A DNA stretch of 41,051 nucleotides from a candidate division WS1 bacterium (lineage in GTDB: Bacteria > Armatimonadota > Zipacnadia > Zipacnadales > UBA5352): the NCBI GenBank assembly GCA_012522765.1, contig JAAYJW010000139.1, positions 1 to 41,051 of the forward strand, written 5' to 3'. A model generated the notes under the pieces. That model saw only the letters and a list, made by a program, of their open reading frames with translations, did not search any database and was not told the DNA's origin. Below, piece after piece: positions 18,734 through 41,051 of this stretch (its first letter is position 1; each line of letters begins with the position of its first letter). A program made the position numbers and the translations under genes.

Positions 18734-20953
18734 TCACAGGCCCTCCGGCACCGGCAGTGCCGCATTCCAGTGCATCTGCGACATCTCAAGCCGGCGCAGC
18801 ATCGGCTCATCAATCGGCACATCACCGCGCGCGGCACGAGCCTTCATCAGCAACTCCAGCAGCCTCACGCACTGGTGCGGGTGAAGCGTCATGGCCCGAC
18901 CGGACTGCGCCCTGGACAGGAACATGCCGGCTTCTTCATCGAAGCCCTGGCTCGGGTTCGCCAGGAACCACTCCGCCAGCCCCGAAGCCTGTGACTCAAC
19001 GTACCGCGCCAGTCCGTCCCGCGTCGGCGGCTCGGTGATCTTTCCCCACGGCTGGCTGACGGCGCTCGTGACGGTGCCGCGGAGCAGGTCCGGTCGGCCG
19101 ACCGTGCTCGTCTGCGGCGTTCTCCCGCTCACTCGGGCGAACTCCTCCACCTGCGCGGGATCGTCGAGGTAGTATATCTTGCGCTCCCACATCTGAATCG
19201 GCCGCCCGGTCTCCACCTCGTAGTCCCACCACCACTGTCCGGGTTGCGCCTCATTTGCCTCAAGCCACGCGATAACGCGGTTCAGCGGGTCGAGGTAGCG
19301 CTCGTCGCGCGTCTCCCAGTAAGCCGCCGCAAGCCCCGGAGCCGCCCACCGCGAGCCGTAGATTGACACCGAAGCAGGCTCGAAGTGCCGCGCGGGGATC
19401 GGCTGGTTCTGCGCGTCATACTGCGCCGCCCAACCGACCACCTTCCCGTTGTCGATCATCACGTCAACCAGCCAGTCGGCGCCGCGCAATGCCGCCTCGC
19501 GATACTCCGCCTTTCCCGTCAGGCGCGCCATGTGAAGCAGCGCCTCGATCGGGCCGGATGTGCCGTAGTCGTTGACCTCGCCGCCACCGGGAGTGCGCTG
19601 AGCCGTCAGGCCGATGCCCTGCTCCGCATCGTAGATGTAGGACCAGCTTCCGTTGTCATTCTGCGCGCTGGCGAGGAAATCCGCCGACCGCATGCCCGCT
19701 TCGAGATACTCCGCCTTCCCGGTCAGCCGGTGCAGGTACATCATCAGCATCATCGGCCCGGTCTGTGCGTGGTCCTGCAGGAGGATCATGTCGCGCGTCG
19801 GCACATACTCGTCGTTCTCATAGACGTAGGAGTGCTGCCACCAGCCGCCGTCGGACTGCAGGCGCAGGTACATCTGCCCGGTGCGCTCGGCGGCCTGCAG
19901 GTAACGCTCATCACCAAGCGCCTCGTACCCCCACGCGAGGAAGAGACCGCCGAAGGCGGTGTTCCCGTCCTTGCTGCCGAGGAAGTAGCCGTCAGTCTCA
20001 GGCAGGCGAGACTTCTGCCCCATGACCGTCATCAGCGACGGCCATGCGACCGCGAGATTCCAGCCGCCACTGCCCGCAATCTCCTGCGCCCGGATCAGCG
20101 CCTCGAGATGGCGGCGGCAGATGCACTCGAACTGCGCAAGCAGTTCGTCATCAGTGAAGATGGTCGGCTCTGCACACAGAACCGGCGGCTCAGGCGGTTC
20201 AGTCGCGAAGCGGATTCCGTTCTCCTGACTCGCCGCCCACTCCTCGAAAGCTCCGTCAGTCACGGAGATTGAGTCCACGGCGGCGCCCAGTGGCTCCTGT
20301 TCGAAGGGTGAGCTAACGCCGGTATTGCCGATGACCAGCATGTGATACGGCCACGGCTCAGTCAGTTGCGCAGGGATCGCAGCCTCCTGCACATCACCGG
20401 CGGCCAGCGTAACTGTGCGCTCCGCCCAATCCCATGCTACCGCCACCACGCTCTCTCCGCCGCGTAGGCCCGACACATCAACTGAGATCAGAGGCTCTAC
20501 CTCGGCGAAGCTCAGAAAGACGCCGCCGCCGGTGTGCGCGACGAGATCGAGCGTGTTGCGCCCGGTCTTGTGCAGCGACAGAGCAAGGCCGGTCGTCTCC
20601 CATCGCTCCGGCTGCGCGAAGATGCCCGTGACACTGCGGGAAAGCGCGAAAAGGCAGTGGCGCTTGCCATCGCGCCAGAAGTCGTCTGCGGCATCTATCC
20701 GCAGGGACAGCGTCCCGCGCTGATGAGGGACATTCTCCGTGGCATCCCACGCGAGGTAGCCATCGGTGCTGGTGATGCGCAGAGCACCATCGCTCACTTC
20801 CCAGCCGCTGCCGAGCGGGAACGGATTACCGGCCGCTATGTCAGCCCACTGGCGGGCTCCGTCGAAGGGAACGTAGAATGTCTCCGTCTCAAGCGCGGCC
20901 GCCGGTGAGAGCGCGACGGCAATGATGACCAGCAGCGCTGCCGCGTGCTTCAT
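18734..20953 (-). CDS. Secreted LamG-like plus alpha/alpha-toroid protein, paralogue 1
   Basis: The 739-residue protein has a signal peptide (about residues 1-20, ending PAAALE). A concanavalin/LamG-like domain follows (about 25-225; GLALSLHKTGRNTLDLVAHTGG), then an alpha/alpha-barrel domain (about 255-610) and a conserved helical tail (LLELLMKARAARGD). Toroid repeats such as ALGDERYLQAAERTGQMYLRLQ and AEYREAALRGADWLVD resemble pectate-lyase PL10 and unsaturated-glucuronyl-hydrolase-like enzymes. Motifs shared with paralogues 2 and 3 are NDYGTSGP (about 459), QYDA..QP..ARHFEP and WWWDYEVETGRPI (about 573); the Asp, Glu and His residues there are candidate active-site residues. Start ATG 20953 overlaps the stop of the 36-residue gene (ATGA) and has GGGAG upstream. 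Lyase versus hydrolase is undecided. Confidence 0.8.
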   Translation of the reverse strand: MKHAAALLVIIAVALSPAAALETETFYVPFDGARQWADIAAGNPFPLGSGWEVSDGALRITSTDGYLAWDATENVPHQRGTLSLRIDAADDFWRDGKRHCLFALSRSVTGIFAQPERWETTGLALSLHKTGRNTLDLVAHTGGGVFLSFAEVEPLISVDVSGLRGGESVVAVAWDWAERTVTLAAGDVQEAAIPAQLTEPWPYHMLVIGNTGVSSPFEQEPLGAAVDSISVTDGAFEEWAASQENGIRFATEPPEPPVLCAEPTIFTDDELLAQFECICRRHLEALIRAQEIAGSGGWNLAVAWPSLMTVMGQKSRLPETDGYFLGSKDGNTAFGGLFLAWGYEALGDERYLQAAERTGQMYLRLQSDGGWWQHSYVYENDEYVPTRDMILLQDHAQTGPMMLMMYLHRLTGKAEYLEAGMRSADFLASAQNDNGSWSYIYDAEQGIGLTAQRTPGGGEVNDYGTSGPIEALLHMARLTGKAEYREAALRGADWLVDVMIDNGKVVGWAAQYDAQNQPIPARHFEPASVSIYGSRWAAPGLAAAYWETRDERYLDPLNRVIAWLEANEAQPGQWWWDYEVETGRPIQMWERKIYYLDDPAQVEEFARVSGRTPQTSTVGRPDLLRGTVTSAVSQPWGKITEPPTRDGLARYVESQASGLAEWFLANPSQGFDEEAGMFLSRAQSGRAMTLHPHQCVRLLELLMKARAARGDVPIDEPMLRRLEMSQMHWNAALPVPEGL

Positions 20954-21060
20954 CGTTCGCACTCCCGCCGGGCCTTGAGCCAGTCGCGGATCAGCAGGCC
21001 GACGATCGTCAGGATCAGCGCCGACATGCTCACGATGGTCAGAATCGTGCCGGTTTCCAT
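20950..21060 (-). CDS. 36-residue single-helix membrane microprotein
   Basis: The sequence METGTILTIVSMSALILTIV followed by GLLIRDWLKARRECER has one hydrophobic helix (about residues 5-24) and a strongly basic cytoplasmic end, so an N-out/C-in bitopic orientation is likely. A GAGGTGA site lies about six bases before ATG 21060. The gene begins 15 bases after the stop of paralogue 2, and its TGA overlaps the ATG of paralogue 1 (ATGA). Spacing, ribosome site and overlap together argue for a translated gene. It has no recognised family. It may couple translation or assist membrane targeting of the secreted neighbours. Confidence 0.7.
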   Translation of the reverse strand: METGTILTIVSMSALILTIVGLLIRDWLKARRECER

Positions 21061-21075
21061 CCATTCACCTCATGC

Positions 21076-23331
21076 TCACTGCGTCTGGTCCCACGCTGGC
21101 TTGATCTTGTGCCAGCCGACGAATGCCTCGGTTCGCCGAAGTGCCGGGTCGTCCGCAGCGATGTCGCCACGCGCGGCGCGCGCCCGCATCAGTACGTCAA
21201 GGAAGCGCACGATCTGATGGCGCACCAGAGAGACCGCCTCGCCCGCCGTTGATTGATGCGTGAACAGGCCAGCCTGCTCGTTGAGAGGCTGAGTCGCGCT
21301 GCCGACATAGTAGTCAATGTAATGCGGCGCCTGCTGCTCGACGTATGCGCGCAGTTGATCGGCGGTCTGCGTGTCCATCAGGCTACCCTCAGGATTCGCC
21401 GCCACCTTCTCAGTCTCATTCCGAAGCTGTGCGACCTGCACGGAGTCCGTCGGCTTCGGCGCAGGCTGGCCGGAGGCATCTATGTATGCCTGCAACTGCG
21501 CGGGATCGTCGATGAAGAAGATCTCGCGCTGATACATCTCGATCGGCCGCCCCGTCTCGATGTCGTAGTCCCACCACCAGCCGCTCTGCTCTGTCTCGTT
21601 GGCCTCGTACCACGCGAGCACCTTCCACAGCGGCTCGAGATAGCTCGTATCGCCGGTTGCCCGCACGGCGGCATAAAGGCCTCTTGCGACCCATCGCGCT
21701 GCATACTGCGTCATCGCCGCCGGCTCATGATGGCGTGCGGCGGAGGGGTTCCCCTCCGCATCATACTGCCCCGCCCAACCAACCACGTGCTCGCTCTCGA
21801 TGAACGCGTCAACCAGCCAGTCGGCTCCACGCAGCGCCGCCTCACGGTAGCGCTCCTCGCCGGTAAGCTGGTGCATCCACAGCAGCGCTTCGATCGGCCC
21901 CGACGTGCCGTAGTCATTGACCTCCGCGCCGCCTACCTCGCGCATCGCGCTGACGCCGGCCTGCCGCTGAGGGTCCCAGTGGTGCGGCCAGCTACCGTTC
22001 GGGTTCTGCACCTTCAGCAGGAAGTCCGCGTTGCGCTTTGCCGCCTCGTCATAGCGCTCATCGCCGGTGATGTGATGCAGATACATCATAAGCTGCATCG
22101 GCCCGGTCTGCACGTGGTCCTGTATCAGCGCCGTCGGCGCGTCGGGCACATACTCCCCGTCCTCGTACCAGTAACCGTGACACCACCAGCCATCCTCGTG
22201 CTGCGCCTGCAGGTACATGTCAGCGGTGCGCATGGCCGCCTGCAGGTAGCGCTCGTCGCCCAGCGATTCGTAGCCGAATGCCAGCAGGAGCGCCGCAAAC
22301 GCCGTGTTCCCGTCCTTCGAGCACTGCACGAAAGTCTCCGGCGCGGGAAGCCGCGTCTTCGCGTTCGTGCCCATCAGCGACGGCCAGTTGATAGTAAGAT
22401 CCCAGCCGCCGACGTTCTGCGTAGCCACCAGCATCTCCAGGTGGTTTCGCGCCAGCCACTCAAGCCGCCCGGGCTGCTCGTCATCGGAAAAGAGTGTCGC
22501 TTCCGTGCCGAACGAGGGCAGTCCGGGCCGTGCGATTGTGAGCGGATTTGCGGCGGCCATCACCTGCTCGGCCTCGGGCCACGGGAGGGCCACGATCGCG
22601 ATCTCATCAAGCTGCCCGTTCAGTGGCTCCTGCGCGTTCGCAAGATAGTTCTCCGTGTTGCCGAATGTGGCCGCGAGATACGGCCATGGCTCCTGCAGCG
22701 CCTCAGGGATCTGCCCCTCATGCGCCTCGCCATCCACGACCAGCCACAGTTTGCGCTCCGGCCAGTGCCATGAGAACGCGAGGTGGTGCCAGTCGGTGGG
22801 GTAGAGGCCCGAGGCATCAACGCTGATGACCGGCACTGGCTCGCTGCCGCGCATCCAGTGATCGCCACCGATGTGCGCGATCAGGTCCAGCGTGTTGGCC
22901 TCGGTCTTGCGCAGCGACAGCGCCAGTCCGGCCTGTGCCTGCCGGTCGGGATCGGCGTACATGCCGGCAAGGGTCCGCGGGAGAGAAGCGATCGCGTGAA
23001 GCTTTCCGTCGGCGAAGATGTTCGCGTCACCCGAACGGACCATCAACGAGACGGTGGCCGATTCGACCGGCAAATTCGCGGTGCCTTCGTAGACGATGTT
23101 GCCATTGCGGGAGGTGTTAGCCCAGGCGCCATCTTCCAGCGAGTAGTCAACGCCGATCGGCCACGGGTTGCCTGCGGCCTTCCATGCAGCAGCGGGCCCA
23201 TCAAAGTCCGCGTAAAGCGTGACCGCATCATGACCGGCCCACTCTGCGCCGCAGGTTGGGGCGGCGTGGAGTTGTGTGGCAATAGCAAGCATCGTAAAAG
23301 CGGCCAATCCGGCCGCAGAAATCAGTCGCAT
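21076..23331 (-). CDS. Secreted LamG-like plus alpha/alpha-toroid protein, paralogue 2
   Basis: The protein has 751 residues from ATG 23331, preferred because AAAAGGA lies eight bases upstream and a signal peptide (MRLISAAGLAAFTMLAIATQ ending LHAAP) follows. In-frame ATGs at 23352 and 23361 are alternatives. The domain order matches paralogue 1: LamG-like (about 30-240; GLALSLRKTEANTLDLIAHIGG), toroid (about 265-620; GDERYLQAAMRTADMYLQAQ), and a tail with VLMRARAARGDIAADDP. The shared motifs NDYGTSGP (about 470) and WWWDYDIETGRPI (about 584) are intact. Paralogues 2 and 3 look closer to each other than to 1. Likely extracellular or periplasmic polysaccharide lyase or hydrolase. Confidence 0.8.
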   Translation of the reverse strand: MRLISAAGLAAFTMLAIATQLHAAPTCGAEWAGHDAVTLYADFDGPAAAWKAAGNPWPIGVDYSLEDGAWANTSRNGNIVYEGTANLPVESATVSLMVRSGDANIFADGKLHAIASLPRTLAGMYADPDRQAQAGLALSLRKTEANTLDLIAHIGGDHWMRGSEPVPVISVDASGLYPTDWHHLAFSWHWPERKLWLVVDGEAHEGQIPEALQEPWPYLAATFGNTENYLANAQEPLNGQLDEIAIVALPWPEAEQVMAAANPLTIARPGLPSFGTEATLFSDDEQPGRLEWLARNHLEMLVATQNVGGWDLTINWPSLMGTNAKTRLPAPETFVQCSKDGNTAFAALLLAFGYESLGDERYLQAAMRTADMYLQAQHEDGWWCHGYWYEDGEYVPDAPTALIQDHVQTGPMQLMMYLHHITGDERYDEAAKRNADFLLKVQNPNGSWPHHWDPQRQAGVSAMREVGGAEVNDYGTSGPIEALLWMHQLTGEERYREAALRGADWLVDAFIESEHVVGWAGQYDAEGNPSAARHHEPAAMTQYAARWVARGLYAAVRATGDTSYLEPLWKVLAWYEANETEQSGWWWDYDIETGRPIEMYQREIFFIDDPAQLQAYIDASGQPAPKPTDSVQVAQLRNETEKVAANPEGSLMDTQTADQLRAYVEQQAPHYIDYYVGSATQPLNEQAGLFTHQSTAGEAVSLVRHQIVRFLDVLMRARAARGDIAADDPALRRTEAFVGWHKIKPAWDQTQ

Positions 23332-23365
23332 GCAGATCGTCCTTTTCTTCATTATGCGCATCGGG

Positions 23366-25621
23366 TCATTCCACTTCGAAGAGCAGCCTCGCCACTGGTT
23401 CGCCATCCACGCGGATCTCCACCCACCACGTGCCCGAGGTGAAGCCTCCGTCCGGCATCAACCATGAGACGCTGCGCCGCTCTCGGTTGATGGGGATCAA
23501 TGTGCGACCTAGGCTGAGGTCGTCGCGGTAGAGTCTCAGCGAAAGCATGCCATCCTCAGGCGCGCCATCTGCCTCAAAGTAGACGCCGAGACGATCGCTT
23601 CCGGCAGCCAGTGTGCCATCAAGCTTCACCGGCCGGCCGCCGTCCAGTCCCGTGCAGAGGTAGGCCTTGCGCAGATAGCTGTCCTCTGGCGGGTCGAGTG
23701 GCTCGGGCGTGCCCGTCGTAGTCTCCGCCGTCTGCGGCTTGTCGGGCTTCGGCGGCTCAACCGGGGCGGGATCGGCCTCCTGAGGCGGATCGGGCGTGGC
23801 GGGCGGCGCTGGCGTCTCAGCTTCGGCCTCTACCGGCTCCGCAGGCTGCTCGACCTCAGGAGTAACCGGTGGCGTCGGCGGCTCGGCCAGCGACGGCGGC
23901 AGCAGCGCATCGAGCCCGGAACGGCGAGGCGCGATTCCGGGGCCCGCGATGATATTTCGCGCAACGCTCGCGGCGGCTCCGGGGGCTCCCTGCAGGAGGT
24001 AAGTGCGCTCGCCGGACTGCATCGCGTAAAGCGGCGGGTCGGTTTGCAGGCTCAGCAGCCCGTCGTTCCACTCGCCGCCGGCGCCGGTGACCAGCAGTTG
24101 CAGCAGCCCCGCGGCCTGAGTGCCGCCGGGTGTCTCCAGACCGACGACGGTCACGGGGCGGTCGTCCACCCAGACAACCTGGATAGCGCCGGAGGAGATG
24201 GATTGCGCGTCAAAGTCGATCCCTGGAATGACCCGGCTGAGGTCGTCGAGGTTGATCCGGTGGGTGCTGCTGGCCATCCAGCCCGCGGGAAGAGTGTCCC
24301 GCGGCAACAGCGCGCCTACGACCGCGGCGGCGATGGCCTCAAGTGGATTGTCGCCAGTCCCCACGATGCCCGGGGTCGCGACCCCATCGGCATCCGTGAA
24401 GCGACATAGTTGCAGGAACGCCTCGGTGTCAAGCTGTCCGCGCGCGAACATCCTGGCGGCCTCTGTCGGTACGTTGATCCCGAGCGTCTGCCCGGTCGCC
24501 CGCTGGAAGACCGCCGCCACATCCTCCGTCCACGGAGCCGCCAGCGCCGCGTTCACCAGCGTGTAGGCGATGATGGGCTCCAGATGGCCGTGGCCCTGCA
24601 GGTTCGGCATCTCACTGATGACCACCGCCTGCGTGTCATCGAGCCTGATCTCCAGATTGCGCAGGCCGAGATTGACACCCAACTCGCTCTCGATCCGCTG
24701 CATGGCCTGCTCGATCAGCGCATCGGCATCAACCATGCCGCTATCAAGCGTGGGCACCCCGAGTTCTCTTCCATAGCGCGCTACAAGGCCGCGTACCAGC
24801 ACGCGCGTGAGGTCATCGGTCTCCACAGAGCCCCCGGAAAAAATCTCCTCGAGGTCCACGCCGCCGCCGTAGCCGCCGCCGATGATCTGCGCTGCTTCGC
24901 CCAGTGCGCCATTCTGCTGCTGAAGTTCGTGGAAGAGCAGCGCCTGCACTATCCCCAGCGGGCTGTTGCCCCCGCCGAGGAGCGAGATCCCGATTCCGGC
25001 GCCCTCCCAGAGCGTGTCGCCAACTTCGGTGGCCGCACGATCGAGGAAGCGGCCGACATCGCCGAGCAGGCCGCCACCCTCGCGTTTGCGCGCGATGCCC
25101 GGCTTGACGCTGTACTCACCGGCCACGTGATAGCGACACTCCGCTGCCGGGAAGCTACCGAACCACTGGTGCTTGAGTCGTGCGATGATCCGGAACTTCT
25201 TCGAGCCGGAAAGATCCACCGTGCCGCTGATGCGGAAAGGCTCCTCCTCATCCCCGGGCAGAATTTCCTGGCCGGAGATGAGCGTGATGCGCGACTTCCT
25301 GCCCTCGAGACGCTCGCCCTCGAGCAGACGGTCGCCCTTCCACGACTCGTCGCTGGTAGCGATGTAACGGTCGGGAAGATCGCGAAAGCGTCCGCCATCC
25401 TCGATCTGCTCCACGAGGATATCAAGCTCATTGCGCACCTGAAGCTGTCCCTCGGGGGTAAGCTCTCTGGCTGTGGCCGTTCCCTCGAAGTAGAGGAGGT
25501 GCTCGGCGTTGATGTTGGCCGTGACGTCAAGCCGCGGCTTCTGCGCAAGCGCAGGGAACGCGCAAACCAGTAGCAGAAGCACTGCGGCAGCTATCGTCTG
25601 AGGGGAACGCTGAAGCAACAC
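23366..25621 (-). CDS. Large secreted protein of unknown family with Pro-rich linker
   Basis: The protein has 751 residues from GTG 25621 (GAGG nine bases upstream). A signal peptide (about 1-26, ending FPALAQ) precedes about 540 residues I cannot assign; these contain a Gly-rich stretch (QIIGGGYGGGVDLEEIF) and segments that look like a curli- or secretin-type lipid-binding fold only vaguely. A Pro/Glu-rich linker (about 580-645) leads to a C-terminal beta-sandwich-like domain (about 650-751; LSLRLYRDDLSLGRT, GTWWVEIRVDGEPVARLLFEVE) resembling a small carbohydrate-binding or invasin-like module. It lies between toroid paralogues 3 and 2 on the same strand, 34 bases before the chosen start of paralogue 2. 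Function unknown. Confidence 0.65.
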   Translation of the reverse strand: MLLQRSPQTIAAAVLLLLVCAFPALAQKPRLDVTANINAEHLLYFEGTATARELTPEGQLQVRNELDILVEQIEDGGRFRDLPDRYIATSDESWKGDRLLEGERLEGRKSRITLISGQEILPGDEEEPFRISGTVDLSGSKKFRIIARLKHQWFGSFPAAECRYHVAGEYSVKPGIARKREGGGLLGDVGRFLDRAATEVGDTLWEGAGIGISLLGGGNSPLGIVQALLFHELQQQNGALGEAAQIIGGGYGGGVDLEEIFSGGSVETDDLTRVLVRGLVARYGRELGVPTLDSGMVDADALIEQAMQRIESELGVNLGLRNLEIRLDDTQAVVISEMPNLQGHGHLEPIIAYTLVNAALAAPWTEDVAAVFQRATGQTLGINVPTEAARMFARGQLDTEAFLQLCRFTDADGVATPGIVGTGDNPLEAIAAAVVGALLPRDTLPAGWMASSTHRINLDDLSRVIPGIDFDAQSISSGAIQVVWVDDRPVTVVGLETPGGTQAAGLLQLLVTGAGGEWNDGLLSLQTDPPLYAMQSGERTYLLQGAPGAAASVARNIIAGPGIAPRRSGLDALLPPSLAEPPTPPVTPEVEQPAEPVEAEAETPAPPATPDPPQEADPAPVEPPKPDKPQTAETTTGTPEPLDPPEDSYLRKAYLCTGLDGGRPVKLDGTLAAGSDRLGVYFEADGAPEDGMLSLRLYRDDLSLGRTLIPINRERRSVSWLMPDGGFTSGTWWVEIRVDGEPVARLLFEVE

Positions 25622-25656
25622 CGGTCATCCTCTTCTGCGGTGGTAGCGACAAAACC

Positions 25657-25688
25657 GGGAGACTCGCCTGATGCGCCGGTCGAGTCCC
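25657..25688 (-). terminator. Possible intrinsic terminator after paralogue 3
   Basis: On the minus strand, GGGACTCG (25688-25681) pairs with CGAGTCTCCC (25666-25657) through an 8-bp stem with one bulged T. The T-containing sequence CCGGTTTTGTCG follows. It sits 50 bases after the paralogue 3 stop and 36 bases before the next start, in the only wide gap of the cluster, so it may attenuate rather than end transcription. Confidence 0.4.
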
Positions 25689-25736
25689 TCGGTTACTTAG
25701 TCGCCTCAGGGCTGCTGATTGTTTCGCCGGATCGGG

Positions 25737-28007
25737 TTACTCCGCGGCATCGAGCAGGACTTTGTTCCATCCAACGCCCGGATCGATGCGGCGGAAGAGC
25801 GGATTATCCGCCGCGATGTCGCCGCGCCCCGCCCGCGCCCGCATCAGCAGGTCGCAGAACCGGGCGACCTGGTGCCGTGAGAGGTTCGTTCGCCAGCCGG
25901 ACTGGTAGTCCCACGTGTAGAGGCCCACGCGCTCATTCAGCGGAGGGCTCCCACCCTCGATGTACCCCGCGACGTAGTTGGGAGCGGCGGCCTGAACATA
26001 CTCCGCCAGTTCCTCCTGAGTCGGTTGGTCGAGTACGCGGCCGTGTGGCTGCGCGAGGATGTCCTCATACTGATTCTGCAGGCCCGGGACGTTCACGCTG
26101 TCCTTCGCCTGCGGCGGATTGCTCGCAGCGGTCACCCTCATATACTCCGCGATCTGCTGCGGGTCGTCCATGAAGTAGATCTGCCGGTCATACATCCTGA
26201 TCGGCCGGCCTGTCTCGACGTCGTAGTCCCACCACCACGCCGCCTCACCGTCCACCATCACCTTGTTCTGCTCGAACCACTCGAGGACCCGCGCTACCGG
26301 CGCCAGGTACTTCTCATCGCCGGTCTCACGATATGCGGCGAAGAGGCCATTCGCGGCCCAACGCGCACCATACTGCGTCACAGCGGGTGGCTCGAAATGC
26401 CGCGCTGCGGCAGGCTGATTGTCCGCGTCATACTGTCCGGCCCATCCGGCAACCTTGCCGTTGTCAATGAACGACTCCATCAGCCAGTCGGCGCCCTTGA
26501 GCGCCGCCTCGCGATAGCGTTCCTCGCCGGTGTACTCGTAGACGTTCAGCAGCGCGGTGACGGGTCCGGAGGTGCCGTAGTCGTTGATCTCGCCGCCTCC
26601 GGGTAGCATCTGCGCGGTCTCACCGATGCCACTCTCCACATCATAGTGATGCGGCCATGAACCGTTGTCATTCTGCGCAACGATGAGGAAGTCGGCGCCG
26701 CGCTTCAGGGCATCGAGATACTTCTGCTCGCCCGTGACGCGGTGCATGTATGCAAGCAGCGTGATCGGCCCCGTCTGGCAGTGGTCCTGTATCAGCGGGT
26801 TCTGCGTGTCCGGCACATACTCGCCATTGTCGTAGTAGTAGCCGTGTATCCAGTAGCCGAGGTCGGGGTCCTGCGTCGTCACGTACATGTCCGCGGTATT
26901 GCGGGCGGCATGCAGGTAGGTCTCATCGCCCAGCGCCTCGTATGCGAATAGCAGGTGCATCGCGCCAAAGGCGGTATGAGCGTCCTTCGACAGCCAGATC
27001 ATGTTGCGCGGCTCAGGCATGCGGAACTTGGCCGTCCACTGCAGCTTCGAGGGCCACGCGATACTGAGGCACCATCCGCCATGCCGCTGCGTCTCGACCA
27101 GCATGTCCAGATGCTGCCGCGCGACCTGCTCGATGCGCGCGAGGTTCGGATCGTCGGGGAAGAGCGTCGCCTCCGCGGTCCACGTCGGATCTTCCGGACG
27201 CGCCGCTGTGAGCGCCGCATCAGAGGCCATGATCGCCTGCGCCTCCGGCCATGGTACCGACAGCACCGCGACCTCGTCGAGCATGCCATTGAGTGGCTGC
27301 TGCGCGGGCGCGCGGTAGTCTTCGGAGTTGCCGAGGATCAACGCGAGATACTCATGCGGCCGCTCCACGCCTTCGGGGAAGTCGCCCTCGATAGTCTGAT
27401 CGTTGATGACCAGCCAGCTCTTCCGGGCGCCGAAGTCCCACGAGAAAGCGACATGATGCCATGCTGCGGGATCGAGTGCCGAGGCATCGCATGACGCGAG
27501 CACCACGGACTTGGAGTCCCACATCCATTCATCGCCGCCGACATGGGCGATCAGGTCGAGGGTGTTCGCCTCCGTCTTGCGCAGTGACAGCGCGAGGCCC
27601 TGCTTCGGCCAGAGTGACCGATCCGCCACCATGCCGGTGATGGTGCGGCAGAGCACGGCTACGGAGTGTGTTTTCCCGTCGGTGAAGATGTTGTCCGAGC
27701 CGGAGCGCAACCAGAGCGAGACCGTGCCCGACTCCAGCGGGATGTTGTCGAGGCCGTCGTAGCCAAGGTAGCCCATCCGCGTCGTGTTGCGCCACGCTTT
27801 GCCGTGAGCGCCGCCGTCCACAAGCTCAAAGTCCGAACCGAACTGATACGGGTTGCCTGCGGCCTTCCAGGCGTAAGTGGTGTCCTCGAAGTCGAGGTAG
27901 AACGTTACGTTGTCATCTCCTGCCCACCGGGCACCAGAGGTCTGGGCCAATGCGCAGCCGGACATCAGCAGTATCAGAGCGATGCCGCCTAGCGTCAGGT
28001 TCCTCAT
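25737..28007 (-). CDS. Secreted LamG-like plus alpha/alpha-toroid protein, paralogue 3
   Basis: The protein has 756 residues from ATG 28007 (GGGAG eight bases upstream). The leader MRNLTLGGIALILLMSGCALAQ contains an LMSGC lipobox, so this copy could be a lipoprotein, although a signal-peptidase-I site at ALAQ is also possible. Paralogues 1 and 2 have no such Cys. The LamG-like domain (about 25-235; GLALSLRKTEANTLDLIAHVGG), toroid (about 265-625; GDETYLHAARNTADMYVTTQ) and tail (LLMRARAGRGDIAADNP) follow the paralogue plan. NDYGTSGP (about 474) and WWWDYDVETGRPI (about 589) are conserved. It begins 35 bases after the stop of the beta-helix gene. Confidence 0.82.
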   Translation of the reverse strand: MRNLTLGGIALILLMSGCALAQTSGARWAGDDNVTFYLDFEDTTYAWKAAGNPYQFGSDFELVDGGAHGKAWRNTTRMGYLGYDGLDNIPLESGTVSLWLRSGSDNIFTDGKTHSVAVLCRTITGMVADRSLWPKQGLALSLRKTEANTLDLIAHVGGDEWMWDSKSVVLASCDASALDPAAWHHVAFSWDFGARKSWLVINDQTIEGDFPEGVERPHEYLALILGNSEDYRAPAQQPLNGMLDEVAVLSVPWPEAQAIMASDAALTAARPEDPTWTAEATLFPDDPNLARIEQVARQHLDMLVETQRHGGWCLSIAWPSKLQWTAKFRMPEPRNMIWLSKDAHTAFGAMHLLFAYEALGDETYLHAARNTADMYVTTQDPDLGYWIHGYYYDNGEYVPDTQNPLIQDHCQTGPITLLAYMHRVTGEQKYLDALKRGADFLIVAQNDNGSWPHHYDVESGIGETAQMLPGGGEINDYGTSGPVTALLNVYEYTGEERYREAALKGADWLMESFIDNGKVAGWAGQYDADNQPAAARHFEPPAVTQYGARWAANGLFAAYRETGDEKYLAPVARVLEWFEQNKVMVDGEAAWWWDYDVETGRPIRMYDRQIYFMDDPQQIAEYMRVTAASNPPQAKDSVNVPGLQNQYEDILAQPHGRVLDQPTQEELAEYVQAAAPNYVAGYIEGGSPPLNERVGLYTWDYQSGWRTNLSRHQVARFCDLLMRARAGRGDIAADNPLFRRIDPGVGWNKVLLDAAE

Positions 28008-36666: not shown

Positions 36667-38475
36667 ATGGCCGCCGAACGAGATGAGATGCTGGCGCAGA
36701 ACCTTGTCGAGATGGGCCTGCTCACTCCCGAGCAACTCGACGAGGCGCGGCAGTATGCCGAGCAGGAGCGGAGCACGCTGGTGCAGGCGCTGCTGCGGCT
36801 GGAGATGACGACCGCTGGCGATCTCGCGAGAGCCGCTGAACATGCACCCGCCGCCCCTGCCGCTTCCACTGCTCCCGTGCCCGCCGAAGAGCGCAATGTT
36901 GCTGCCGCGTCTCAACGCCCTGCCGCACGGCGCGCGCGACCTGATGGCAAAGCGTCCCTCGACAGCTACGAGGTGGACCCCGAGGCGCTGCGCCAGGTGC
37001 CCAAGCCCGTCGCCGAAGAGCACCTTGCCCTGCCGCTGCAGGTCAGCGAGGACCGCATACTCGTCGCCATGGCCGATCCGGGCAATGTCTTCGCCATTGA
37101 CGTCATCCGCGCCCGCACGGGCAAGCGCGTGGAGCCGATCGAGGTGGACGAGGTAGAGTTGCGCAACGCCATCGAGCAGTACTACGCCACCCGCGCGCAG
37201 ATGGAGGTCTCCACCGCCGGAGCGGCCACCACCAGCCTTGAGATGTCCATCAAGGGCGCCGACTTCGCCACCGACATGGATCAGAAACTCGTCGAAATGC
37301 TCGACCAGGCGCCCGTGGTTGCCATCGTCGAGCAGATCATGAAGGAGGCGGTTCGCATGCGCGCCTCCGACATTCATATTGAGCCTCGCGCCGATCAGGT
37401 CCGCGTCCGCTATCGAGTGGACGGGCAACTGATGACATTCACCACCCTGCCCTCGGATATGCACCGCTACGCCATCTCGCGGCTCAAGATCATGGCGGGC
37501 GCGGATATCTCCGAGACGCGCATGCCGCAGGACGGCCGCTTTGCCACTGAGGTAGATGATCGGCCGATAGATGTGCGTTTCTCCACGCTGCCCACCTACT
37601 GGGGCGAGAAGGCCGTGCTCCGCCTGCTGGACAAGTCACGCGCGCTCGTCTCGCTCAACCAGCTTGGGATGAGCCAGGAGATGATGCAGCAGTGGGAGAA
37701 GCTGCTGCATACCCGGCAGGGGATGCTGCTCGTCACCGGGCCGACCGGCAGCGGCAAATCAACTACCCTCTATGCTTCGCTGCACACGATCAATGACGAG
37801 ACGAAGAACATCACCACGGTCGAGGACCCGATCGAGTACCAGGTGACGGGTGTCAATCAGACTCAAGTGCATCCGCGGATTGACCTGACCTTCGCGACCG
37901 CGCTGCGGCATATTCTCCGCCAGGACCCGGACATCATCCTGATCGGTGAGATCCGCGATCTCGAGACGGCCGAGATGGCTTTCCGCGCATCGCTCACCGG
38001 TCACCTCGTGCTCTCCACGCTGCACACGAACGACGCCCCCTCGGCTCCGACGCGTCTCATGGACATGGGCGTGGAGCCGTACCTGATCGCCTCGTCTACC
38101 ATCGGCATCGTCGCCCAGCGACTCGTTCGGCGTATCTGCCCGCGCTGCAGAGAGGCGGTTGAGCCGACCGCGGCCGAGCTTGAGCGGCTCGAGCTGTCGA
38201 GCGAGCAGGCGAAGAAGATCAAGTTCCACCACGGCCGCGGCTGCGCCATGTGCCGCAACACCGGTTACTCCGGCCGCATCGGCGTGTATGAGCTGATGGC
38301 GATCACGCCCGAGGTGCGTGACGCCATCGCCGCGCAGGCCAACGGCTCGGAGCTGCGCCGCGTGGCGCTGCGCAACGGTATGCGCAGCCTGAAGTACGAT
38401 GGCCTCTCAAAGGTGAACGCGGGTGTAACTACGGCCGGCGAGGTTATCACGCTGCTCTTCGCCGGCGAGGATTAG
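36667..38475 (+). CDS. pilB: Type IV pilus assembly/type II secretion ATPase PilB/GspE
   Basis: The protein has 602 residues from ATG 36667 (GAGGAGG upstream). An N-terminal short helical segment (about 8-56) and an Ala/Pro-rich linker precede an MshEN/T2SSE-N domain (about 95-175; DPEALRQVPKPVAEEHLALPL). The catalytic core has an arginine-rich N-terminal half (RASDIHIEPRADQVRVRYRVDG), Walker A GPTGSGKST (about 358-366), the Asp box TTVEDPIEY, the His box and Walker B (DIILIGEIRD, about 420). A zinc-binding tetracysteine, CPRC and CAMC (about 490-527), is followed by GYSGRIGVYELM. It powers extension of a pilus or pseudopilus. The last eight codons and stop recur at 39536-39560. Confidence 0.95.
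   Translation: MAAERDEMLAQNLVEMGLLTPEQLDEARQYAEQERSTLVQALLRLEMTTAGDLARAAEHAPAAPAASTAPVPAEERNVAAASQRPAARRARPDGKASLDSYEVDPEALRQVPKPVAEEHLALPLQVSEDRILVAMADPGNVFAIDVIRARTGKRVEPIEVDEVELRNAIEQYYATRAQMEVSTAGAATTSLEMSIKGADFATDMDQKLVEMLDQAPVVAIVEQIMKEAVRMRASDIHIEPRADQVRVRYRVDGQLMTFTTLPSDMHRYAISRLKIMAGADISETRMPQDGRFATEVDDRPIDVRFSTLPTYWGEKAVLRLLDKSRALVSLNQLGMSQEMMQQWEKLLHTRQGMLLVTGPTGSGKSTTLYASLHTINDETKNITTVEDPIEYQVTGVNQTQVHPRIDLTFATALRHILRQDPDIILIGEIRDLETAEMAFRASLTGHLVLSTLHTNDAPSAPTRLMDMGVEPYLIASSTIGIVAQRLVRRICPRCREAVEPTAAELERLELSSEQAKKIKFHHGRGCAMCRNTGYSGRIGVYELMAITPEVRDAIAAQANGSELRRVALRNGMRSLKYDGLSKVNAGVTTAGEVITLLFAGED
38451..38475 (+). repeat. 25-bp direct repeat, copy 1 (inside the pilB 3' end)
   Basis: The sequence opens GCTGCTCTTCGCC and closes GGATTAG; it encodes the last pilB residues LLFAGED plus stop. 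The identical 25 bases occur at 39536-39560, on the other side of the Mrr-like gene. The matching bases end at both sides: C versus T just before, and C versus A just after. Confidence 0.95.
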
Positions 38476-38519
38476 CACAGGCGGGAGCCGCGAATTCAAT
38501 GATATCAGGGGAGAACTAT

Positions 38520-39530
38520 ATGGCTGATGAACCTATTGTCTGGGGAATCCACGCGGGTAGTTCGGGACAGGCCGAAGAGCTTTTCCTGAAGAAGAATGTG
38601 ATCTCAATCGGCTGGGATCGGATTGGGGACCTCGCCCAGTGGCAGACGCAAGAGCAGTATAAAGCGGTCGTTGCGCAGGCGTATCCGGACGATAAGGCCG
38701 GTGCAGTACCTGTCTACGCCGGTATACTTCGCCGCTTTGCCCACGAGATGGATATCGGGCAGTTCGTCGTCTATCCGTGCAAATCCCAGCGGACAATATG
38801 GGTCGGTGAGATCACAGGCCCGTACGCGTACCGGCCGGACATCGATGCCAATTATCCTCACCAACGAAGTGTGACGTGGTGCGACGGTCTGCCGCGGACG
38901 CGGTTCTCGCAGGGCGCACTCTACGAGGTAGGTTCTGCCGTCACTCTCTTCCGCGTTAGCAACCACGCCGACGAATTTATAGCCATCGCGCGCGGTCAGG
39001 AGCCGACATCTCCGGTCGAGGTTGAAGGCGAGACGAGCATCGTGGCGCGTGAGATCGAGGAGCAGACGCGAGACTTCGTGCTGAAGCGTATCTCGAAGCA
39101 CTTGAAGGGGCACCCTTTCGCGGAGTTTGTCGCCGACCTCCTTGGGGCAATGGGCTACAAGACGAGGATCAGCCCTCCCGGGCCAGATCACGGCATCGAT
39201 ATTCTGGCGCACCCGGACGAGTTGGGTTTCCAACCACCACTCGTGAAGGTCCAGGTGAAGAGTTCAGAGGAGACCGTCAACGAGGCTGCGGTATCGCAGT
39301 TGTATGGGAAAGTGGATTCAGGCGAGTTCGGGCTCTTCGTCACGCTGGGCGGGTTCACCCCCGGAGCCAATGGGTTCGCTCTGAGTAAGGGGAACCTTCG
39401 GCTGATGAGCGGTGATGATGTCCTCGATACAGTGTTTGCGCATTACGACAGTATTGATGCGCGCTACAAGGGCATGATCCCGCTTCGTCCTACATACATA
39501 CCAGAGGGGCTGGAGAACGTCGAGGACTAA
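38520..39530 (+). CDS. Mrr-family type IV-like restriction endonuclease (solitary)
   Basis: The protein has 336 residues from ATG 38520 (GGGGAG six bases upstream). Residues about 1-160 form an N-terminal domain with FVVYPCKSQRTIWVGEITG and HQRSVTW, resembling the PUA/EVE-like modified-base-reading domains found in many restriction proteins. Residues about 185-305 form a PD-(D/E)XK Mrr-catalytic domain: Glu 203 in FAEFVADLLGAMGY, Asp 227 in GPDHGIDILAHP and Gln 245-Lys 247 in KVQVKSS are the expected catalytic D and QxK. The family cuts DNA with modified (often methylated) bases. No methyltransferase lies nearby, consistent with a type IV enzyme. GC content is lower than its neighbours, and it sits between 25-bp direct repeats. 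Confidence 0.85.
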   Translation: MADEPIVWGIHAGSSGQAEELFLKKNVISIGWDRIGDLAQWQTQEQYKAVVAQAYPDDKAGAVPVYAGILRRFAHEMDIGQFVVYPCKSQRTIWVGEITGPYAYRPDIDANYPHQRSVTWCDGLPRTRFSQGALYEVGSAVTLFRVSNHADEFIAIARGQEPTSPVEVEGETSIVAREIEEQTRDFVLKRISKHLKGHPFAEFVADLLGAMGYKTRISPPGPDHGIDILAHPDELGFQPPLVKVQVKSSEETVNEAAVSQLYGKVDSGEFGLFVTLGGFTPGANGFALSKGNLRLMSGDDVLDTVFAHYDSIDARYKGMIPLRPTYIPEGLENVED

Positions 39531-39535
39531 ACCGT

Positions 39536-39560
39536 GCTGCTCTTCGCCGGCGAGGATTAG
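39536..39560 (+). repeat. 25-bp direct repeat, copy 2 (after the Mrr gene)
   Basis: This is identical over 25 bases to the pilB 3' end at 38451-38475. The six bases before it (ACCGTG when read in the pilB frame) give TVLLFAGED-stop, compared with ITLLFAGED-stop in pilB. It therefore looks like the end of a slightly different or pre-insertion pilB. The secreted glycosidase gene starts 25 bases later. Confidence 0.95.
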
Positions 39561-39585: not shown

Positions 39586-41051
39586 ATGCACCCTGCACGG
39601 CTAATCATGCTCGCACTGCTGCTCTTCGGAGGTATCGCCATGGCCGCTGACAACCTCGTCGCGAATCCGTCATTCGAAAGCGCCGACGCTGAGGGCGTGA
39701 TAGCCGACGGATGGGTCTGCCGCGATGGTACGCCCGTCGAGCGCCGCACCGATGGCGGCCACACCGGCAGCGCCTACGTGCGCTTCCTCGATGATGCCGG
39801 CGACAGGGGCCAGTTCCTTGAGTGCGCGCGGCTTGCCGCCAGAGCAGGCGGGACTTACACCGGATCAGTCTGGCTGCGGACGGATGATACCTGCCAGCCC
39901 GGTGTCTACCTGAACTTCTACGATGGCCTCGGCGTGCGGATAGCCAACAAGTTCGAGCGAGCCACGGGTCCCACGGATGGTTGGGTGCAGGTCACCGTCA
40001 CCGAAGACGCCCCCGCCGATGCGTGGGAGGTGACGCTCGGCATCTACGCCTACATCGGGGACGTGGGCGTCTTTGACGCAGATGATGCTGTGCTCACGGT
40101 CGAGGGTGGCGAGGAACCCGGTTCGGACCGCTTCGAGCGAGTGCAGCCCTCAGTCCACGACAGCTACGAAATCGGCGACCGCCTCGAACTCTTCGTGGAC
40201 GGCTTTCTCGTAGATGGGATGGCCGGCCCCGTCGAGCGCCGCCTGCATCATCCCGTACCGCGCGAGGCGATCCTGACGCTCGATCAGCCGTGGGAGGGCG
40301 ATACCTGCGCCTACTTCGTGGTGCTGCGCGATGGTGACACGGTGCGGATGTACTACCGCGGCAGCAGCGACGAGGGCGGGCAGGTCTGCTGCCTGGCGGA
40401 GAGCGCCGATGGCATTCGCTTCGAGCGCGTGCAGACCGGCATCATCGAGTTCGACGGCTCTCGCGACAACAACATCGTCTGGCTCGGGCGTGCCGCACAC
40501 AACTTCACGCCCTTCATCGACACGAAGCCGGGCGTTCCCGCTGATGAGCGGTACAAAGCCGTCGGCTACTCCGAGAAAGGCAAAGGCCTCGGGGTATTCG
40601 CGTCGCCGGACGGCATCAACTGGCGGGAGTTGCTCGACCATCCGGCGATCACCGAGGGCGCGTTCGACTCGCAGAACCTCGCGTTCTACGACCCGATGCG
40701 GGGGCTTTACGTGGATTACCACCGCCTCGTCCGCGAGGGTGTGCGCGACATCATGACCTGCACCAGCGAGGATTTCCGCACCTGGACCGACCCGGTCTTC
40801 ATTGAGTACGCCGACTCGCGCAAGGAGCACCTGTACACCAACGGGATCATCCCCTATCCCCGCGCCCCGCACATCTACATCGGTCTGCCTGCGCGGTTCG
40901 TGCCCGCGAGGACCAAGCACCCCGAGCACCCGACGCCCGGAATCAGCGATGGGGTGCTGATGAGCAGCCGCGACGGACTGAACTTTGAGCGCTGGTCGGA
41001 GGCATTCATTCGGCCGGGACCGGAGCCGCAGGTCTGGACGGATCGCAACAG
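39586..41051 (+). CDS. Secreted CBM plus five-bladed-propeller glycosidase (GH43/GH32-like), 3' end cut
   Basis: The frame is open from ATG 39586 to the window end (488 codons, no stop). A signal peptide (about 1-20; MHPARLIMLALLLFGGIAMA) precedes a beta-sandwich CBM-like domain (about 22-170; NLVANPSFESADAEGVIADG, FDADDAVLTVEGG). A five-bladed propeller-type domain begins with RLELFVDGFLVDGMAGPVERRLHHP and continues through TCAYFVVLRDGDTVRMYYRG and SADGIRFERV. This opening is typical of a GH43/GH32-like family common in Planctomycetota and Armatimonadota. The first Asp in LFVDGF is a candidate catalytic residue. The ribosome site is GAGG in a GNRA hairpin. It probably lay directly after pilB before the Mrr insertion. 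Substrate unknown. Confidence 0.85.
   Translation, partial: MHPARLIMLALLLFGGIAMAADNLVANPSFESADAEGVIADGWVCRDGTPVERRTDGGHTGSAYVRFLDDAGDRGQFLECARLAARAGGTYTGSVWLRTDDTCQPGVYLNFYDGLGVRIANKFERATGPTDGWVQVTVTEDAPADAWEVTLGIYAYIGDVGVFDADDAVLTVEGGEEPGSDRFERVQPSVHDSYEIGDRLELFVDGFLVDGMAGPVERRLHHPVPREAILTLDQPWEGDTCAYFVVLRDGDTVRMYYRGSSDEGGQVCCLAESADGIRFERVQTGIIEFDGSRDNNIVWLGRAAHNFTPFIDTKPGVPADERYKAVGYSEKGKGLGVFASPDGINWRELLDHPAITEGAFDSQNLAFYDPMRGLYVDYHRLVREGVRDIMTCTSEDFRTWTDPVFIEYADSRKEHLYTNGIIPYPRAPHIYIGLPARFVPARTKHPEHPTPGISDGVLMSSRDGLNFERWSEAFIRPGPEPQVWTDRN

Follow-up and report, generated by a model that had tools for sequence, protein, structure and literature searches.

The question raised by this locus is how a single Mrr-like restriction gene came to lie between the end of pilB and the gene that follows it. 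In the window, by which we mean the whole stretch of 41,051 nucleotides analysed, the target gene is an intact pilB/GspE-type pilus assembly ATPase gene (36667..38475, + strand), which carries MshEN and T2SSE Pfam matches (the latter at E=4e-134) and has orthologues of 72-84% identity in six same-family genomes. It is followed by a segment of 1,060 bp (38476..39535, + strand) and then by a downstream gene (39586..41051, + strand), called a glycosidase by the sequence-only reading, which runs past the contig end, gives no Pfam match over its part within the window, and has orthologues of 59-78% identity downstream of pilB in six relatives. The segment is enclosed by the perfect 25-bp direct repeat GCTGCTCTTCGCCGGCGAGGATTAG, the two copies of which (38451..38475 and 39536..39560, both + strand) are identical at 25/25 positions with a spacing of 1085 and with different bases on their flanks. 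Copy 1 starts 22 nt ahead of the pilB stop codon, its last bases being the stop codon itself, and represents the true 3' end of pilB; copy 2 is a stranded duplicate of the pilB tail, of which relatives have a single copy, and is placed 5 nt past the TAA of the Mrr gene and 25 nt ahead of the ATG of the glycosidase-like gene.

This repeat is far beyond chance expectation. When the 41-kb window was simulated 60 times by a first-order Markov model that kept its dinucleotide transitions, exact repeats lying within 3 kb of each other did not exceed 16 bp in 59 runs and reached 19 bp in one, and a search of the whole 4.9-Mb genome for the 25-mer at up to three mismatches returned just the two repeat sites. 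Elsewhere in the window, at 19141-27773, several direct repeats of 0.8-1.6 kb have diverged to 66-69% identity; their spacings are 2.3, 4.7, and 7.0 kb, a pattern which suggests tandem paralogous genes. The inserted segment has a GC content of 58.0% against 65.6% in the remaining window, where there is no other 1,060-bp stretch with GC as low, and this places it in the lowest 3.3% of 1,060-bp stretches in a 213-kb sample of the genome; likewise GC3 is 0.69 in the Mrr gene, compared to 0.83 in pilB and 0.82 in the glycosidase-like gene. The sequence-only reading, which had described a perfect repeat around one Mrr-like gene, the real pilB 3' end in copy 1, and enclosed bases of lower GC devoid of a recombinase, was thus accurate on each of these points, down to the coordinates.

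The insert contains one intact gene on the + strand and nothing else; there is no methyltransferase partner in it, and on its two sides stand pilB and the glycosidase-like gene. The open reading frame reaches back to an ATG at 38499, but the start is likely to be the ATG at 38520, 6 nt past the motif AGGGGAG (38507..38513, + strand), which on reading the sequence would be the ribosome-binding site; the gene would therefore extend over 38520..39530 (+ strand). No promoter-like site was found on the forward strand of the insert and no terminator-like site was found for it, so that the Mrr gene is presumably read from the pilB transcript. No terminal inverted repeats are present at the insert ends.

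The encoded protein matches the PADLOC profile of the candidate defence family PDC-S02 (PDLC04819) over its full length (profile positions 4-330 of 334, E=1.1e-120), and it resembles the family in being encoded by a single gene. It has a PD-(D/E)XK domain of the Mrr_cat type (PF04471; E=3e-21, 76 bits against a cutoff of 21) with conserved catalytic residues; among eighteen PDC-S02 family members D230 and D234 are invariant and K254 is nearly invariant (343-aa numbering). The model of the whole protein (pLDDT 85) has as its best structural matches the modification-dependent endonucleases MspJI and AspBHI, with low whole-chain TM-scores of 0.30-0.34, and these two enzymes, which the PDC-S02 family profile also picks up weakly at the sequence level, are the nearest solved relatives of both model and profile; their reader domain, however, differs from that of the PDC-S02 protein. 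When the N-terminal 162 residues were modelled separately (pLDDT 91), all ten best fold matches were YTH, EVE, or THYN1 structures, including the EVE-domain structures 1zce and 2gbs. Individually weak (E 1e-3 to 1e-1, TM about 0.33-0.43), these matches agree on a domain resembling the PUA-like superfamily that reads modified bases. This YTH/EVE-like assignment derives from the fold comparison made here and was not found for PDC-S02 in the literature searched, while EVE-type readers within modification-dependent nucleases are already known, for example in VcaM4I (PMC12707154). Judged from its domain and fold resemblances, the protein is probably a one-gene, modification-dependent (type IV-like) restriction enzyme which probably reads a modified base via the YTH/EVE-like domain and cuts via the Mrr domain. 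A single gene would be enough, because an enzyme of this kind needs no partner methyltransferase.

Comparison with related genomes confirmed that the Mrr segment was inserted behind pilB. In two genomes of the same genus (G001 and G003) the orthologous glycosidase-like gene comes about 8-50 bp after pilB, which has a single tail, and the 1,060-bp segment with its Mrr gene is missing; these are the empty sites that the sequence-only reading had proposed to look for in close relatives as a sign of insertion at the pilB 3' end. Since copy 2 leads straight into the glycosidase leader, the pilB tail abutted the glycosidase gene when the Mrr segment arrived. In three further genomes of the family (G002, G007, and G009; loci L077, L079, and L081) a gene which reads as creatininase-like from its sequence sits between pilB and the glycosidase orthologue; no match to it at E<=1e-40 was obtained in the whole genomes of G000 (the genome of the window), G001, or G003. 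A tree of pilB and the glycosidase pairs G001 with G002 as sisters and places G000 beside them; the creatininase-like gene is thus in G002 and not in its sister. Such a distribution indicates more than one change of occupant in the slot behind pilB.

Taken as a family, PDC-S02 is clearly mobile: within the phylum it has a patchy distribution (20/291 genomes), and its genes are found in scattered phyla, on plasmids, and in integrative elements and defence islands of enterobacteria. No relative was found on viral contigs. One genome (G287; loci L065 and L046) has two PDC-S02 genes from different subgroups. The enterobacterial homologues, which adjoin BREX-like, type I RM, and HipA genes, lie on integrative elements or islands and are not insertions of a comparable kind, and the repeats near the gene at a Planctomycetota locus (L071) are unrelated, being duplicates of the upstream regions of two other genes. 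At about 23 other PDC-S02 loci, drawn from the phylum sample and a GTDB scan, no repeats of at least 14 bp bracketed the gene within 700 bp, and the insertion structure at pilB is not a family feature. A more sensitive self-comparison of these loci added only Bradyrhizobium ivorense (L069:7029-8471), where a repeat pair lies beside the gene. There a PDC-S02 gene of 53% identity ends 24 bp from a duplicate of its neighbour's 3' end; this duplicate, 103 bp long and 89% identical, has the PDC-S02 gene on one side and a cytochrome c-like gene on the other, and about 3.4 kb is inserted between two conserved genes that are immediate neighbours in many other Bradyrhizobium examined. It differs from the pilB locus in that the nuclease gene is outside the repeat pair, the cytochrome c-like gene is inside, and the orientation is opposite. 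We regard the B. ivorense locus as a partial parallel, and as a lead, not as a second instance.

The explanation that we prefer, at a little short of an even chance, is a single capture event, in which one horizontally acquired restriction gene entered at a break that spanned the final 25 bp of pilB and the target was duplicated. A double-strand break with staggered ends of about 25 nt would have occurred at the pilB 3' end, both ends would have been filled in, and a linear fragment with the Mrr gene would have been ligated between them, plausibly by the genome's own Ku-LigD end-joining operon; the insert would then have been retained because pilB stayed intact and the Mrr gene, which has a ribosome-binding site of its own, could be expressed from the pilB transcript. 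The genome has a Ku gene directly followed by a LigD-type ORF (L188, G000:C64), the LigD assignment being made by reading the sequence without a profile. Ku is present in three of the four genomes of the genus (G000, G001, and G003), is absent from G002, and was not found in seven sampled genomes outside the genus; its presence is circumstantial, and end joining at a staggered break is unproven as the mechanism. We count in support of capture the empty congener sites, the repeats that are perfect despite a variable tail, the absence of the 25-mer elsewhere in the genome, the lack of inverted repeats, of a promoter-like site and of bracketing repeats elsewhere, the single copy, the low GC and GC3, the patchy family, and the reader and nuclease folds. 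Published bacterial non-homologous end joining mostly gives deletions of 1-6 bp at the broken ends (PMC10932983), and a fill-in of 25 nt would therefore be atypical. Also weighing against capture, a repeat that ends exactly at the stop codon and an insert trimmed to one gene fit a site-specific or gene-sized unit as well.

The main rival, which we consider unlikely, is a site-specific mini-island, in which the 25-bp repeats would be attL and attR and the tyrosine recombinase would have been lost or would act in trans. Site-specific islands typically sit at the 3' end of a gene and restore its stop codon, and the pilB insert shares with them the direct repeat that restores the gene end; moreover, four full-length and one partial match to the phage-integrase family in the genome could supply the activity in trans. 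Matches of this kind are, however, common to all 14 control genomes, and the insert, at 1.06 kb and with one gene only, does not bring the recombinase of its own that marks a site-specific element. It also differs from islands in being present in one copy and in its non-conserved target: the tail is variable among congeners, so that a perfectly matching element would need to be adapted to this species in particular. Repeated use of one attachment site was not seen either, since the other pilB loci examined (a list in which some loci recur, several pilB sequences having served as queries) had no tail duplication within 1.5 kb, and there is no third 25-mer in the genome. A search of some 1.1 Mb from this genome and its relatives, the hits of which were screened by eye and not singly, gave no clear case of another stop-codon tail duplication; most hits were repeats of a CRISPR-like kind, further dispersed repeats, or repeats resembling internal coding sequence of paralogues.

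Somewhat more doubtful still is recombination with a donor in which a pilB tail already stood beside the Mrr gene, by a single crossover of a circle or by homology-anchored illegitimate recombination. The structure produced would be identical, and the PDC-S02 gene of B. ivorense, beside which 103 bp from the 3' end of a neighbour recur in diverged form (89%), offers an analogy, but the perfect identity of the repeats demands that the donor belonged to this species or to one almost identical with it, so that the question is only pushed back a step. The pilB tail varies within the genus: 4/25 bases differ in G001, and still more in G002 and G003, the stop region included. It is because the repeats are identical although the tail varies between congeners that our comparison favours a copy made from the host's target over a tail brought in by a donor. 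Similarity falls sharply past the 25 bp, to 3/6 bases, and then ends. Of the two models set against each other by the sequence-only reading the target duplication is hence the better supported, and the likeness of the sequence beside the repeat (TVLLF, with a TV/IT continuation), on which a donor tail had been suggested, comes down to those 3/6 bases. Import of a donor tail would need an almost identical pilB in the donor, while duplication of the host's own target needs no extra assumption.

An assembly artefact, in which a 25-bp overlap led to the placement of an Mrr contig in the pilB locus, is quite improbable: the draft is fragmented (521 contigs) and was the one genome of the species in the comparison, but both flanks continue correctly, an intact gene fits between them, and there is no third 25-mer locus to cause a misjoin. 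We assign a similarly small, marginally lower probability to the idea that solitary PDC-S02 genes are gene-sized units which insert at the 3' ends of genes and duplicate the host tail, a route that would be undescribed; if true, the pilB and B. ivorense cases would be two snapshots of such units entering genomes. The suggestion of a minimal mobile defence element did not find support in our searches, as there is no second copy in the genome, no bracketing repeat at the other PDC-S02 loci, no other duplicated pilB tail at the loci examined, and no terminal inverted repeat or recombinase, and nothing found indicates that the unit moves by itself. Least probable of all is transposase-mediated movement of a non-autonomous unit, which could account for the flanking direct repeats but for which both the terminal inverted repeats and the multiple copies of insertion sequences and non-autonomous transposons are absent, and for which the 25-bp duplication exceeds those that common DDE insertion sequences make.

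According to the summary in PMC3031569, Nobusato et al. (2000) described insertion with long target duplication for restriction genes. The cases are alike in having a restriction gene between host genes and a long direct target duplication, recognised by comparison of related genomes; they differ in that a restriction-modification pair is involved there and a solitary PDC-S02 gene here, with a duplication of 25 bp exactly at the stop codon in a Ku-LigD lineage. Two testable features of such insertions are found at pilB, namely the empty site in a relative (G001 and G003) and the 25/25 junction repeat, and by these sequence features the pilB insert would belong with this class and not with insertion sequences or self-integrating islands. 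With an occupied site, empty congener sites, exact junctions, a duplicated target, and a genome equipped for end joining, the locus is an unusually clean one-gene defence acquisition. As a single event which does not in itself establish the mechanism, it is relevant to the spread of lone restriction genes to new loci when no mobile element carries them.
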